Positions 10,027 through 28,249 of a DNA stretch of 64,000 nt are shown piece by piece; within the stretch, counting starts at the first letter, position 1; the number at the start of each line of letters is the position of its first letter. A model generated the notes under the pieces. It was not told the origin of the DNA, ran no database searches, and saw nothing but the letters and a program-made list of their open reading frames with translations. The stretch covers positions 3,720,001-3,784,000 of the forward strand of contig NC_010175.1 of the NCBI RefSeq assembly GCF_000018865.1, in the 5' to 3' direction. Position numbers and translations under genes: made by a program. Origin of the DNA: Chloroflexus aurantiacus J-10-fl. GTDB taxonomy: Bacteria; Chloroflexota; Chloroflexia; Chloroflexales; Chloroflexaceae.

Positions 10027-10167
10027 GTTGACACCAGGTATGGGTTGTGCATAGCCGGGCGGGAGAGGGGAGGGTAGACGTGTGATCCAGAGCTTCCTGA
10101 TAGGGTAGACGTTGGGTTCGATCATCTGTCCTGGCCGTCCGTGAATGCCGCCAGGGGCGGGAGCTTG

Positions 10168-10356
10168 CTCCTGGCTCCTCCCTCCAGCACTGGTACCGGC
10201 ACCATACGCGCCAGAGGCGTGCGCTCCCAGCTCCTGGCTCCTCCCTCCAGCACTGGTACCGGCACCATACGCGCCAGAGGCGCGCGCTCCCAGCTCCTGG
10301 TTCCTCCCTCCAGCACTGGTACCGGCACCATACGCGCCAGAGGCGCGCGCTCCCAG
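10168..10356. repeat. 63-bp tandem repeat, three units
   Basis: Units begin at 10168, 10231 and 10294, each starting CTCCTGGYTCCTCC and containing CACTGGTACCGGCACC. They differ by only a few bases. Because 63 is divisible by three, frames stay open on both strands here, but no start, ribosome site or family supports a protein. Confidence 0.9.
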
Positions 10357-10514
10357 CGCCTGGCTGGGGAGCACGTCCGTCATCACACCCCCGACCCGCT
10401 CCGGCACACGGGCAATGCAGTATTCGCGTTATGGGTAATGCATAGCGCGCAGCGGGCGAGGGGCCGGGGGTGAGAGCGTTCTCTGTATCATCCGGCACAA
10501 CTACCATTGCCCGA

Positions 10515-14875: not shown

Positions 14876-16009
14876 CTACTCTTCGCCGCGTAATCGACAT
14901 AATTCGCGTTCCAGCTCGCGTAGTCGTGCTTCAATCGCTTCACGTGCCTCGGCTTCGCGGCGGGCCTGTTCTTCAGCGAGCCGTGCCCGCTCTTCAGCCG
15001 CCGCTCGTTCCTCAGCCTCGCGGCGGGCCTGCTCCTCGGCGGCCGCCCGCGCCTCGGCTTCACGGCGGGCCTGTGCTTCCGCGAGCCGTGCTCGCTCCTC
15101 AGCAGCAGCGCGAGCCTCGGCTTCGCGGTGAGCCTGTTCTTCGGCGGCCGCCCGTGCAGCCGCTTCTGCCGTCCGCGCCTCAGCTTCACGGCGGGCATGC
15201 TCTTCGGCAGCAGCGCGGGCCTCCGCTTCACGCCGCGCCTGTTCCTCAGCCGCTGCCCGTGCCTCGGCTTCGCGCCGGGCCTGGGCCTGCGCCGCTTCCG
15301 CCTGCTCCATCATCGCGGTGTAGTTCCCCATCACCTCGCCCCGTTCGTCGGAGCACACGACGTGGTTGTCCGCGATCCCCAACCACAGTCGGGCACTCTC
15401 CAAATACACCCGTCCGTGCTCGTCCGGCGGGTGCAGCACGTAGTGCTCCCCCACCAGCCGGTAGTCCAGCAACCGCAGCCGGAGCGGCTCTTCCCGTGTC
15501 AGATAATCCACGATCACGTACTGCGCGACCCCCGCCCGTGCGTAGTGTTCAACTTTGCGCACCAGATCGATCTCACGAGTCTCCGGTGAGGTGATTTCGA
15601 TGATCAACGCTGGCCGCTACCCCTCCTGCGCGACATCGAATGTGCTCCAGTTCTCCCGTTTGGTGATGCCGGGAATCACCATCACGTCCGGGCTGTGTGG
15701 CCGTAGTCCGGGCACGTCCCAGGCGATGCGGATATCGCTCATCACGGTGGCTTCGCCGGTGCGTTCGAGCCGCGCCTGGAGCACATCGGTGAGGTAGCGC
15801 TGGTCGGTTTCGTGACGGATGCTATGCACGATGAAATCTCCCACCTCGGGATGAAGGACATCCTCGAGGGTGAGCGGCACCTGCTCGAGATGATGCGGGT
15901 CGTCGGGGGTGGGACGGTGGACAAAGCGCCAGCCGTAGCGAAACGGGTCGTCGGTTGGGGCCGATGGCGGGTCGGGAACCAGCATAGTTTTGGGCGACGG
16001 TTGGCTCAT
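14876..16009 (-). pseudogene. Uma2-family (DUF820) protein with long coiled coil, broken by an in-frame TAG
   Basis: The frame starts at the ATG at 16009 (MSQPSPKTML) behind GGGAGG. Codons 1-130 match the first half of a Uma2/DUF820 domain (DIRIAWDVPG, HSPDVMVIPG). A TAG at 15617-15619 then interrupts it in the conserved glycine/arginine loop. The same frame continues with RPALIIEITSPETREIDLVR, the Uma2 core with its PD-(D/E)XK-like acidic residues, then YVIVDY and a tail of about 145 residues of repeated EARAAAEEQARR type that must form a charged coiled coil. The whole would be 377 residues if TAG were sense. Uma2 proteins are common in Cyanobacteria and Chloroflexota and have a restriction-endonuclease-like fold of unclear role. 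It could be a recent nonsense mutation or a sequence error. Confidence 0.8.
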
Positions 16010-19670: not shown

Positions 19671-19710
19671 ATATGGCTGTCAAGTCGAACGACCGGCGTG
19701 TCGAATACCT

Positions 19711-20395
19711 AACCAACCAGGGCACCGGCAGGATCGCGGCACCGAGACCCAGAGGACACAGTGGTTGGTATGTAGAACCTACCCGTGACCAGCAGGGTCA
19801 ACGGCGTACCACGCGCCGGATCGTGAGTACGGCTGCTGCGGCAGCCATGCTGCCGCACTCCAAACATCGCGACACGCGCATGATGTGCGGGCAAGGCAAC
19901 CAGTCCAACGAGAGATTCTCCTGTGCTCTCTGTGCCTCTGTGGTGCACCTGACCAACCGGGGTGCCCGCAGGATCGCGGCACCGAGACCCAGAGGACACA
20001 GTGGTTGGTATGTAGAACCTACCCGTGACCAGCAGGGTCAACGGCGTACCACGCACCGGATCGTGAGTACGGCTGCTGCGGCAGCATGGCTGCCGCACTC
20101 CAAACATCGCGACACGCGCATGATGTGCGGGCAAGGCAACCAGTCCAACGAGAGATTCTCCGGTGCTCTCTGTGTCTCTGTGGTGCACCTGACCAACCAG
20201 GGCACCGGCAGGATCGCGGCACCGAGACCTGGATGAGACAGCGGTTGGTATTGTAGAACCTACCCGTGACCAGCAGGGTCAACGGCGTACCACGCGCCGG
20301 ATCGTGAGTACGGCTGCTGCGGCAGCCATGCTGCCGCACTCCAAACATCGCGACACGCGCATGATGTGCGGGCAAGGCAACCAATCCAGCGCGTG
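19711..20395. repeat. 240-bp tandem repeat, three units (last incomplete)
   Basis: Units start at 19711, 19951 and 20191 with ACCAACCRGGG, and each holds one dispersed hairpin element (19787, 20027, 20268). The first two are nearly identical. Further fragments of the same text (CTCTGTGCCTCTGTGGTGC, ACCAACCGGGGCACCGG) continue to about 20660. The frames running through it on either strand exist only because 240 is divisible by three. Confidence 0.9.
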
Positions 20396-24006: not shown

Positions 24007-24855
24007 TCAACTCCCACTTCCCGTCTGAAATTGCCAGGTGTAGCTAAACGGTTGATTTGCGTATGATCCGTTGACTGAAACCTCGATCAATGTGTTGGGG
24101 GGAAGGCTGAGCGTTGGCGTGATCACGATCCCCTTGTGTCCAACCGGTAATGAGGTTGAGAAGCTATGCGCGAGATTGCCGCCACCCACGACACGTAAAG
24201 CAGTGCTGCTGACAATCGGGGTGTCGCCGAAGTAGCGCCAATGTACGGTGATCGGGAATTGCGTCGGTGGGATGTCGGTCTGATTCGGTGCCGGATAGCG
24301 CACCGGCCAGTTGGGGTAACTGTCGCCATTGTTGAAATACGATAGTACATCCAGTGCTGCCGCGCTTGTATTTCCATTACTGGTTGTGTAGAAGCCGAAA
24401 CCGAATGTAGGAGTCGTCGGGTACAGGAGCCAGATCCGGTGACCGACCGAGCGCATCCAGCCATCAACGGCGTGGGCAGGTTCCCACACAATACCTCCTC
24501 CAATCCAGGCATTGCCTTTTTGGGCGCAGATCTGGCCGGCAGCGGAAGCGAAAGGACGGTTCGGGTCCTGGTTATGCGTCAGGTGATTGTTTTCGGCCAT
24601 ATAGCGGGCGTGTTCAAAGCAATTGCTGTTGAGGGTAGCATCTTCGGTGACCGGAGGAACACCGGCGCGTAGTCGATAGCCGTTCACCCGTTCCAGCCAG
24701 TTGCTAGAAAGTGGTGGCAATGGATTGGCGACCATTGGGATGAAGACAGTGGTGGTTGTTGTCTGCGTAACGGGTTGAGCCAGGGCGTTGGTTGACACGA
24801 TGAGTAGCATCAGAGCGACAACACAATACCGACGGAATGGAAAGTGGTTTGCCAC
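24007..24855 (-). CDS. Secreted CAP-domain (SCP/PR1-like) protein
   Basis: This 282-residue protein has a signal peptide (hydrophobic about 11-26, cleavage near NALAQ) and a Thr-rich stretch to about 40. A CAP domain follows at about 52-170, with WLERVNGYRLRAGVPPV, HARYMAENNHLTHNQD and GWMRSVGHRIWLLYP. The C-terminal part (about 190-280) is a beta-rich domain ending in an Ig-like TLIEVSVNGSYANQPFSYTW strand. Bacterial CAP proteins are exported and of mostly unknown role. The histidines of the CAP cavity are present. No partner gene is evident, and the 116-bp tandem array lies upstream. Confidence 0.88.
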   Translation of the reverse strand: MANHFPFRRYCVVALMLLIVSTNALAQPVTQTTTTTVFIPMVANPLPPLSSNWLERVNGYRLRAGVPPVTEDATLNSNCFEHARYMAENNHLTHNQDPNRPFASAAGQICAQKGNAWIGGGIVWEPAHAVDGWMRSVGHRIWLLYPTTPTFGFGFYTTSNGNTSAAALDVLSYFNNGDSYPNWPVRYPAPNQTDIPPTQFPITVHWRYFGDTPIVSSTALRVVGGGNLAHSFSTSLPVGHKGIVITPTLSLPPNTLIEVSVNGSYANQPFSYTWQFQTGSGS

Positions 24856-25018
24856 GAGCAGCTCCTTACTGAAATCCGTTCCGGTTATCTTGCTCTAGTG
24901 TACATGGTGTTTACCGTGAGAGACAATAGCTCATCCTGGCTATTCTGCGGGTAGGATGCTGTTTATTGACATAATGCGATAGTGTGTAATTTGTGAGTTC
25001 CCTTTGAACGCGGCAGGT

Positions 25019-26125
25019 GCTCTCGCGGGTGGACGGGCGGGTTGAGGACGGGCCTGGCTAGCGCGCCGGGGGTGGCGGGACTGGAGGCGGTGTTATCCAT
25101 ACCATCAGCAAACCGTGCTGCAAGCGCGGCAAGCGCTCTCGCGGGTGGACGGGCGGGTTGAGGACGGGCCTGGCTAGCGCGCCGGGGGTGGCGGGACTGG
25201 AGGCGGTGTTATCCATACCATCAGCAAACCGTGCTGCAAGCGCGGCAAGCGCTCTCGCGGGTGGACGGGCGGGTTGAGGACGGGCCTGGCTAGCGCGCCG
25301 GGGGTGGCGGGACTGGAGGCGGTGTTATCCATACCATCAGCAAACCGTGCTGCAAGCGCGGCAAGCGCTCTCGCGGGTGGACGGGCGGGTTGAGGACGGG
25401 CCTGGCTAGCGCGCCGGGGGTGGCGGGACTGGAGGCGGTGTTATCCATACCATCAGCAAACCGTGCTGCAAGCGCGGCAAGCGCTCTCGCGGGTGGACGG
25501 GCGGGTTGAGGACGGGCCTGGCTAACGCGTCGGGGGTGGCGGGGCTGGTAGATGTGGCATTCATACCATCAACAGACCGTGCTGCAAGCGCGGCAAGCGC
25601 TCTCGCGGGTGGACGGGCGGGTTGAGGACGGGCCTGGCTAGCGCGCCGGGGGTGGCGGGACTGGAGGCGGTGTTATCCATACCATCAGCAAACCGTGCTG
25701 CAAGCGCGGCAAGCGCTCTCGCGGGTGGACGGGCGGGTTGAGGACGGGCCTGGCTAACGCGTCGGGGGTGGCGGGGCTGGTAGATGTGGCATTCATACCA
25801 TCAACAGACCGTGCTGCGAGCGCGGTAAGCGCTCTCGCGGGTGGACGGGCGGGTTGAGGACGGGCCTGGCTAGCGCGCCGGGGGTGGCGGGACTGGAGGC
25901 GGTGTTATCCATACCATCAGCAAACCGTGCTGCAAGCGCGGCAAGCGCTCTCGCGGGTGGACGGGCGGGTTGAGGACGGGCCTGGCTAGCGCGCCGGGGG
26001 TGGCGGGGCTGGAGGCAGTGTTATCAGTACCATCAGCAGACCGTGCTGCGAGCGCGGTAGACACTCTCGCGGGTGGACGGGCGGGTTGAGGACGGGCCTG
26101 GCTAGAGCGCCGGGGGTGTCGGCGC
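25019..26125. repeat. 116-bp tandem array, nine units plus a partial tenth
   Basis: Units begin at 25019, 25135, 25251, 25367, 25483, 25599, 25715, 25831 and 25947, with a partial unit at 26063. Each starts near GCTCTCGCGGG and contains the G-rich GGGTGGACGGGCGGG followed by TTGAGGACGGG. Two unit types exist. Type A has GCTAGCGCGCC and GGAGGCGGTGTTATCC; type B has GCTAACGCGTC and GGTAGATGTGGCATTC. The order is A-A-A-A-B-A-B-A-A'. Within a type, units are nearly identical, which points to recent expansion or gene-conversion-like exchange. There are no unique spacers, so it is not a CRISPR, and no credible reading frame passes through it. Confidence 0.95.
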
Positions 26126-26251
26126 TGGTGTCATGCCGGTTTTACCCATCCTGATCAGTCTTGCTGATAAAACTTGAAATCTGAATTGCCTTCTCTGCCG
26201 CCCTGTGCTACGATGAGCCTTGAGCGTTCGCCACTTGTGACGGAGTAAGCT

Positions 26252-28249
26252 ATGAGCGATGCCGATGGAGAGATTGTCTCGGTTGGAAGACCGGATCGCG
26301 CCGGAAAGAGTCGATTGGGTAGTGCTGTCTCACAGGTGGTTGTCGTTGCCGATGAGCGACCGTTTGCCGTCGCGTTGGCTGCTTACCAGCGGGCAGATAC
26401 GACGTTGTTGCCCCATTTTTACCTGGCTCGCGATGGCACGCGCTATCAATTGTTGACAGCCGGACGTGCCGGTTGGGGGGCCGGGCGGGCGATCTGGCGT
26501 CAGCGCTGGCGTAATCTTGATCGTAGTGCGTTGATTCTCTGCCTCGAAGCGCCTTCGGTCACCGATCTCAGTGAGGCGCAGGCGACAGTTCTGGCAGGCT
26601 GGCTCCCGGCGCTGGTTGCCCAACATCATCTGTCACTGGCCGATGTCGGGATGCTGGTGTCAGCGGCCAATGGTCAGGTGCGGTTGCAGCCGTATATTCC
26701 GCCTGCCCCGCCGGTAGAGCCTGCCCTCGATACGGCGTTCGTGCTGGGGAGTGGCGTGCGGTCGCCAGAGCAGGAGCTTTGGCTGGGTCTGGCTACGATT
26801 ACCTGGCGGCAACGGGGAGCGCAGTTGCGCCTTAATCAAGCCTTTTCGCTGTATTGGGGGAAGGTTGATCTGGGTGCACCGCTGGCACCTAACGAGCCGC
26901 CACCGGTGGCTGTCGATGGCAAGACGTACAATTTTCAGGTCTTTGCCCGCGATACGATCTTTAATGAAGGCACGCAGTACGCCGCTGTTCAGCGTTTGTC
27001 CGATCTGCTCGGCCCCGACATTGGGGCGATTCCGACTGCCGGTGTGAGCCGAGCGTTGATTGAGGCAAGTTATCGTAGTGCGCTCAAAGCCAGTGCCGCT
27101 CGCGCACCACTCGAAGGGAAGACGGAGTTTCGGGCCGATTGGAAATTTCATTTTGTCGCTCTGCAGGCCCGCCTTGGCCCGGCACTCAGTGGCAATTATG
27201 TGACTGCCGACCGCGCCTTTGCAGTGCAGGTCTTTGCCGGTGATACGCTCTATACCCCGATGAGTCAGCAGTCCGGTTGTTTCTTTCTCAGCCTGACCGA
27301 TCCGGCCAGTCCGCAGTACGCTCTCATCTGGGCCGAGACCTGTAAGGTGGCCGGGATTCCGTATCTGCCTACCGATCCGTTTCATCAGCGGGCTATCGAA
27401 TTGAAGTTGGGCACGCCGTTGAGCGGGGTCATGCGTGAGACGATTAACGGGCAGGTCTATGATGTGCAGGTCTTTGCGTATGATACGTTGTACCGGGGCA
27501 GTGATGGGGTCATTCGCCGTATGAGCGAACTGCCGCGTCCGGCTGAGGTGCAGAACTGGCAGCCCAAACCGGTTGCGCAACCGGTACAACCGACGCCGGC
27601 ACCGCAACCTGCACCGGCACCGGCGCCATCGCCATCACCGTCACCATCACCTGCCGTTGATGTGCGCAATGCCCCGGAGGTGGTACGGGCGGGTGAGCCG
27701 CGTCGCGATCCCAACTGGCCACCCAAACCTGATTTCAACATCCTGACCGACCGGAACAATCAGCGTGAGCAGGTGCTGGGGAAGATTGAGTGGGTACGGC
27801 GGAGTGGTGATGATATTACGATCACAAATGATTGGGTTGCCCGTCACATTATCGAGGTGCATATTCCGCAATTGGAGCGTTTTCGGAATACCAACGGTGG
27901 GCGGATTAAGTTTCATCGGGTCGCTGCCGACCAGTTACGGCGGTTGTGGCAGGCATGGGAAGATGCCGGTCTGCTCCATTTGGTGCTAACATTTGACGGG
28001 GCCTGGTGGCCACGGACGATCCGCAGCAATCCGACGACGTTGAGTAATCACGCTTACGGGACGGCGTTTGATATTAATGCGCAGTGGAACGGCTTTTACA
28101 AGCCGGCGGCGCTGGTTGGTGATCGCGGTTCGGTGCGTGAACTGGTACCCATTGCCAATGCCCTCGGTTTCTTCTGGGGTGGTCACTGGAACTACGATGG
28201 CAGGGGAGCCAGTGATGGTATGCATTTTGAGTGGGCAGTTGCCCGTTGA
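26252..28249 (+). CDS. Cell-wall M15 peptidase with degenerate amidase-like N-terminus and central repeats
   Basis: This 665-residue protein starts with ATGAGCGATG behind CGGAG. Residues 25-150 resemble an Amidase_2/PGRP domain (PHFYLARDGTRYQLL, GWGAGRAIWRQRWRN) but the zinc histidines are missing. Three repeated blocks follow with the core QVFAxDTxY at about 228, 325 and 406. A Pro/Ala/Ser-rich linker covers about 440-475. The C-terminal M15/VanY-type domain (about 495-665) keeps its zinc ligands in SNHAYGTAFDIN and GMHFEW and should be an active D-Ala-D-Ala or L,D-type peptidase. No signal peptide is visible, which is odd for a wall enzyme. It heads a tight run with SDR, transaldolase and kinase genes (15 bases to the next). 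Confidence 0.82.
   Translation: MSDADGEIVSVGRPDRAGKSRLGSAVSQVVVVADERPFAVALAAYQRADTTLLPHFYLARDGTRYQLLTAGRAGWGAGRAIWRQRWRNLDRSALILCLEAPSVTDLSEAQATVLAGWLPALVAQHHLSLADVGMLVSAANGQVRLQPYIPPAPPVEPALDTAFVLGSGVRSPEQELWLGLATITWRQRGAQLRLNQAFSLYWGKVDLGAPLAPNEPPPVAVDGKTYNFQVFARDTIFNEGTQYAAVQRLSDLLGPDIGAIPTAGVSRALIEASYRSALKASAARAPLEGKTEFRADWKFHFVALQARLGPALSGNYVTADRAFAVQVFAGDTLYTPMSQQSGCFFLSLTDPASPQYALIWAETCKVAGIPYLPTDPFHQRAIELKLGTPLSGVMRETINGQVYDVQVFAYDTLYRGSDGVIRRMSELPRPAEVQNWQPKPVAQPVQPTPAPQPAPAPAPSPSPSPSPAVDVRNAPEVVRAGEPRRDPNWPPKPDFNILTDRNNQREQVLGKIEWVRRSGDDITITNDWVARHIIEVHIPQLERFRNTNGGRIKFHRVAADQLRRLWQAWEDAGLLHLVLTFDGAWWPRTIRSNPTTLSNHAYGTAFDINAQWNGFYKPAALVGDRGSVRELVPIANALGFFWGGHWNYDGRGASDGMHFEWAVAR

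Follow-up and report, generated by a model that had tools for sequence, protein, structure and literature searches.

Between two divergent genes of Chloroflexus aurantiacus J-10-fl, a G-rich segment of 116 bp is repeated over more than one kilobase. Does so regular a structure serve the cell, or is it a by-product of the way in which genomes copy themselves? The original prediction, made from the sequence letters of this locus, left three options: a protein-binding array, a nucleoid or partition site, or a simple minisatellite. Here, we compared the units of the array with each other, searched for them elsewhere, and examined the same interval in related genomes. Coordinates refer, where no other sequence is named, to the window, meaning the whole stretch of 64,000 nucleotides that was analysed (NC_010175.1, positions 3,720,001 to 3,784,000).

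Results

A head-to-tail array with a period of 116 bp was reported by TRF at 25009-26122 (9.6 copies, 93% matches, 0% indels, score 1948), which is far beyond chance expectation. The whole array is somewhat longer, spanning 25009-26128 on the forward strand. It consists of nine full units (U1-U9, 25009-26052), delimited by TRF and unit comparison, and a partial tenth unit of 76 bp (U10, 26053-26128), recovered by motif search and unit comparison, which is the most diverged copy and has 8 differences from the consensus. The nine-unit tandem array originally described was thus correct in its period and its tandem nature, but it missed the tenth unit and the start at 25009. The proposed order of unit types, A-A-A-A-B-A-B-A-A', was confirmed when the units were compared one by one. 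U2, U3, U4, and U6 are identical in sequence, and may for that reason have been miscounted during genome assembly. The remaining type A variants depart from the consensus at two positions (U1) and one position (U8). Type B comprises U5 and U7, with 12 and 13 differences from the consensus and a single one between them, while U9, the A' type, has six. Identical units sit on the left and in the middle of the array, and the most diverged copy forms its right edge.

Superimposed on the 116-bp period is a higher-order period of 232 bp. The self-identity of the array rises from 93.3% at a lag of 116 to 96.1% at 232, and is 92.9% at 348 and 92.5% at 464. Furthermore, the U4U5 and U6U7 blocks differ at only one of 232 bases. 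Both observations indicate that a two-unit step was copied, in agreement with the duplication of a two-unit block that had been proposed. The dimer register may even extend to U8U9, as suggested by bases common to U7 and U9 (column 114), to U8 and U10 (column 6), and to U5, U7, and U9 (columns 72 and 103), although 13 of 232 bases distinguish U6U7 from U8U9.

The array lies between genes. On its left side is a reverse-strand gene for a CAP-domain protein of 282 aa (24007-24855; Pfam PF00188, E 6.5e-19), and on its right side a forward-strand gene for a protein of 665 aa that carries an M15_4 peptidase domain (26252-28249; PF13539, E 8.3e-14) and also has an Amidase_2 match, weak and below the Pfam curated cut-off. 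The two genes are therefore divergent. Upstream of the M15 gene, at 26186-26219 on the forward strand, a block reading TTGCCT-17-TACGAT plus GAGCC is conserved in all eight genomes of the genus that we searched. We call it promoter-like because of this conservation and nothing else, as TTGCCT-17-TACGAT scores 8/12, under the threshold of our promoter scan, and the sigma-70 scan found no site in 24700-26400. The block is probably the promoter of the M15 gene, judging from its sequence and position. The end of the spacer and the GAGCC that follows it are unusually strongly conserved (8/8 genomes). The array ends about 58 bases upstream of this block, which is intact.

Both flanking genes are present in 8/8 genomes of the genus and, by their match coordinates, are divergent neighbours in all of them; in G002, one of the relatives, the CAP gene is matched only in part, and the match stops near the end of a contig. 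The interval between the two gene matches, 1396 bases long in C. aurantiacus J-10-fl, varies widely in the relatives: 1359 in G007, 670 in G005, 661 in G001, 495 in G004, 369 in G003, 264 in G002, and 233 in G006. Neither the 116-bp unit nor the array is found in this interval in any of the seven relatives. Instead, the 233-1359 bp of intervening DNA is unrelated in sequence to the array, and the repeats that TRF detected there are all short or have about two copies. When the C. aurantiacus interval was compared by blastn with those of all seven relatives, each shared one stretch of 34-45 bases, 85-100% identical, located at 26186-26219 or slightly beyond. Joined flanks, aligned with four of the seven relatives, were likewise clearly similar only at the right-hand promoter-like block, and on the left the flanks have diverged too far for the exact insertion point to be placed.

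The 1359-bp interval of G007 (C70:14900-19000, L053) has grown independently. A duplicated block several hundred bases long lies in it, with short motifs, GATTGCTTCGCCTCGC...GCTCGCAATGACA, that resemble ones in G005 and partly in G004. Together, the growth and the duplication suggest that the interval between the CAP and M15 genes may tolerate insertions.

The unit was not found outside the array. Exact copies of GGGTGGACGGGCGGG occur ten times on the forward strand and never on the reverse strand of the 5,258,541-base genome, and all ten lie in the array; the same pattern written backward, used as a control, has no occurrence. At E ≤ 0.001 the unit was found in none of 60 relatives, when up to 14 first-look candidates were scored per genome, and all ten matches in its own genome lie inside the array. 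A second search of the eight genomes of the genus, in which every candidate was scored, returned outside the array itself nothing but matches 14-41 bases long, all with E values of 0.01 or more. With the limit raised to E 10, the best match elsewhere in the own genome had an E value of 0.53, and the best ones in other members of the genus reached 0.01 over 24-35 bases. Such weak matches are at chance level for G-rich sequence. The search for the unit elsewhere in the genome, which the original prediction had recommended, thus came back empty. No plasmid or phage record matched the unit either. An exact 27-base piece of the core had no hit among the genome_contigs records, a result that is silent on other strains, as own or very near genomes were possibly excluded from that scan. 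A dispersed repeat or mobile element was rejected, given the lack of any other copy in the own genome, the 60 relatives, plasmids, and phages.

A coding array was rejected as well. No open reading frame of at least 80 aa lies inside the array, and stop-free runs reach at most 71 codons on the forward and 92 on the reverse strand. Coding had been excluded before on the ground that 116 is not divisible by three; the outcome stands, but the argument is insufficient on its own.

Within the unit, columns 12-52 form a 41-bp G-rich core (25020-25060 in U1, forward strand), which is the same in each of the ten copies; variation falls in 23 other columns. Under uniform placement of the variable columns, an invariant run of this length has a probability of 0.0003. 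In a stricter test, in which linked changes were moved together by circular shifts, the probability was 0.023 for any such run, and 0.0002 for that particular stretch, which was chosen after seeing the data. Selection on the core could account for this pattern, as read from the sequence comparison, and conversion between copies could explain it equally well.

The core carries a loose G-quadruplex motif at columns 19-44, with loops of 5, 1, and 8 bases. The pattern originally described, GGGTGGACGGGCGGG followed 8 bases on by another GGG, is indeed present in each unit and always on the forward strand, but ten times in a row, not nine. There are ten of these patterns because the unit is repeated. 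No canonical motif (G3+ N1-7) occurs in the array on either strand, and allowing loops of up to 12 yields ten, all on the forward strand. The peak G4Hunter score of the unit, 1.72, is reached by 31% of 2000 dinucleotide-preserving shuffles, and 34% of 2000 carry a loose motif. By these measures, the array does not qualify as a G-quadruplex array: its motifs are not canonical and its potential is not above that of shuffled sequence. A G-quadruplex may form in the unit, yet the presence of the motif needs no explanation beyond composition. The loose pattern noted in the original prediction is therefore real, but a quadruplex potential beyond the composition of the unit is not.

How does this array compare with others in the genome? 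In a 400-kb sample (20 stretches of 20 kb) we detected 51 distinct arrays, 26 of them with a period of at least 30 bp, and four of these with at least four copies. The corresponding numbers in a like sample of G006 were 24, 17, and six. The 116-bp array had the top score in the 464 kb of its own genome examined, which places it among the largest of its kind there. In G006, a tandem array with a 135-bp period and 12.7 copies (L093, 3243-4958) has a score of 2705, above that of the 116-bp array; its period is divisible by three. The window itself holds further arrays: an intergenic-looking one at 19707-20388, beside a permease gene (240-bp period, 2.8 copies, 94% matches), and two at 10167-10365 and 14943-15283, whose periods (63 and 105 bp) are multiples of three and which are possibly inside genes.

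Discussion

The array is best read as a species-specific intergenic minisatellite, most likely without a dedicated function, and we hold this with high confidence. It would be young and ordinary in kind, and a function is unlikely. The original prediction had stated that absence from all close relatives and no conservation of the unit would favour a neutral minisatellite. Absence is what we found, with 7/7 genomes of the same genus lacking the array and 0/60 relatives carrying the unit. The second point did not come out as cleanly, as the 41-bp core never varies, at a modest significance.

The identical U2, U3, U4, and U6, the duplicated dimer, and the diverged copy at the edge are the anatomy that would be expected of slippage or unequal exchange. 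In the scenario that we propose, a single G+C-rich segment of 116 bp, situated between the two divergent genes, first doubled and then grew into an array, presumably by replication slippage, unequal RecA-type recombination, or both. The 232-bp A-B step would have been copied as well. The central A units would have been homogenised, and the right-hand end would have kept old, diverged copies. The G-rich strand may raise the proneness to changes in copy number. For the cell, the array would probably have no dedicated function, and at most act as a longer spacer between two divergent promoters.

Among the other explanations, the one with most to recommend it is that the invariant G-rich core has a function of its own, as a target for a protein or as a G-quadruplex, and that its repetition serves to titrate a regulator or to insulate the two divergent promoters. 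The unvarying core in ten copies, the location of the array between divergent genes and close to a conserved promoter-like block, and the G4Hunter peak of the unit are consistent with it. However, no related copy exists elsewhere in the genome or in the 60 relatives, and all seven same-genus relatives keep the neighbour genes and the promoter-like block without this array. The uniformity of the core may be mere conversion between copies, and nearly a third of the shuffled units equal its quadruplex potential. We therefore consider this explanation improbable. Its most specific form is quite improbable, namely that selection maintains the core in each of the ten copies, as a quadruplex or a protein-binding site which insulates or coordinates the two promoters and has arisen anew in this species.

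That the array codes for RNAs, or for a family of small RNAs with one per unit, is very improbable. The unit length is within the range of small RNAs and the position is intergenic, but no Rfam family matched (limit E 1), and a simple scan of 24700-26400 found neither promoter-like nor terminator-like sites. For units A and B, on either strand, the predicted folding was no more stable than that of shuffled sequences (z from -0.29 to 1.80), and with these four folds and the missing Rfam match a structured RNA or RNA family was rejected. A partition, origin, or nucleoid site, whether chromosomal or carried by a mobile element, would fit with tandem units on the same strand, but it deserves next to no credence. 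One would not expect such a site to occur in a single species, at a locus whose neighbours are conserved elsewhere without it. A partition or origin site would be expected either to recur in relatives or to sit near partition or replication genes; here, the array is absent from the interval in 7/7 genomes of the same genus, the neighbours encode CAP and M15 domains, none of the five neighbouring proteins scanned is a partition or replication protein, and plasmids and phages have no match. Thus, among the three options first offered, the minisatellite has the best support.

This genome is rich in tandem arrays. In the passage and table concerned, Subirana and Messeguer 2019 (PMC6749651) count 76 satellites in C. 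aurantiacus NC_010175.1 (5.26 Mb), which is listed first and with the highest number among the bacteria treated there. The Methods of that study require at least four head-to-tail repeats, regular, 10-260 nt long and mostly identical in length, and by these criteria the 116-bp array would qualify, with its nine full units, its partial one and no indels. A prokaryotic minisatellite should also be noncoding or, if it codes, have a period divisible by three; the array is noncoding (116 mod 3 = 2), and in no feature that we tested does it differ from the satellites described there. Human CEB1, a G-rich eukaryotic minisatellite, has a similar G-rich strand bias along the array, which can promote instability (PMC2673046). 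Compared with CEB1, the motif of the 116-bp array, here a predicted quadruplex, is looser, with its loops of 5-1-8.

Intergenic VNTR loci are used in bacterial strain typing (MLVA). The 116-bp array resembles them in that it lies between genes and its central units are nearly identical in the one genome examined here. Because such units usually mean a fast-changing copy number, it could serve as a strain-typing marker. According to our main reading, the array adds one private minisatellite to a genome already rich in satellites, and is of little consequence. If the core were nevertheless selected, the locus would show a regulatory array that has emerged anew in a single species, in an interval that all sampled relatives have kept free of it.
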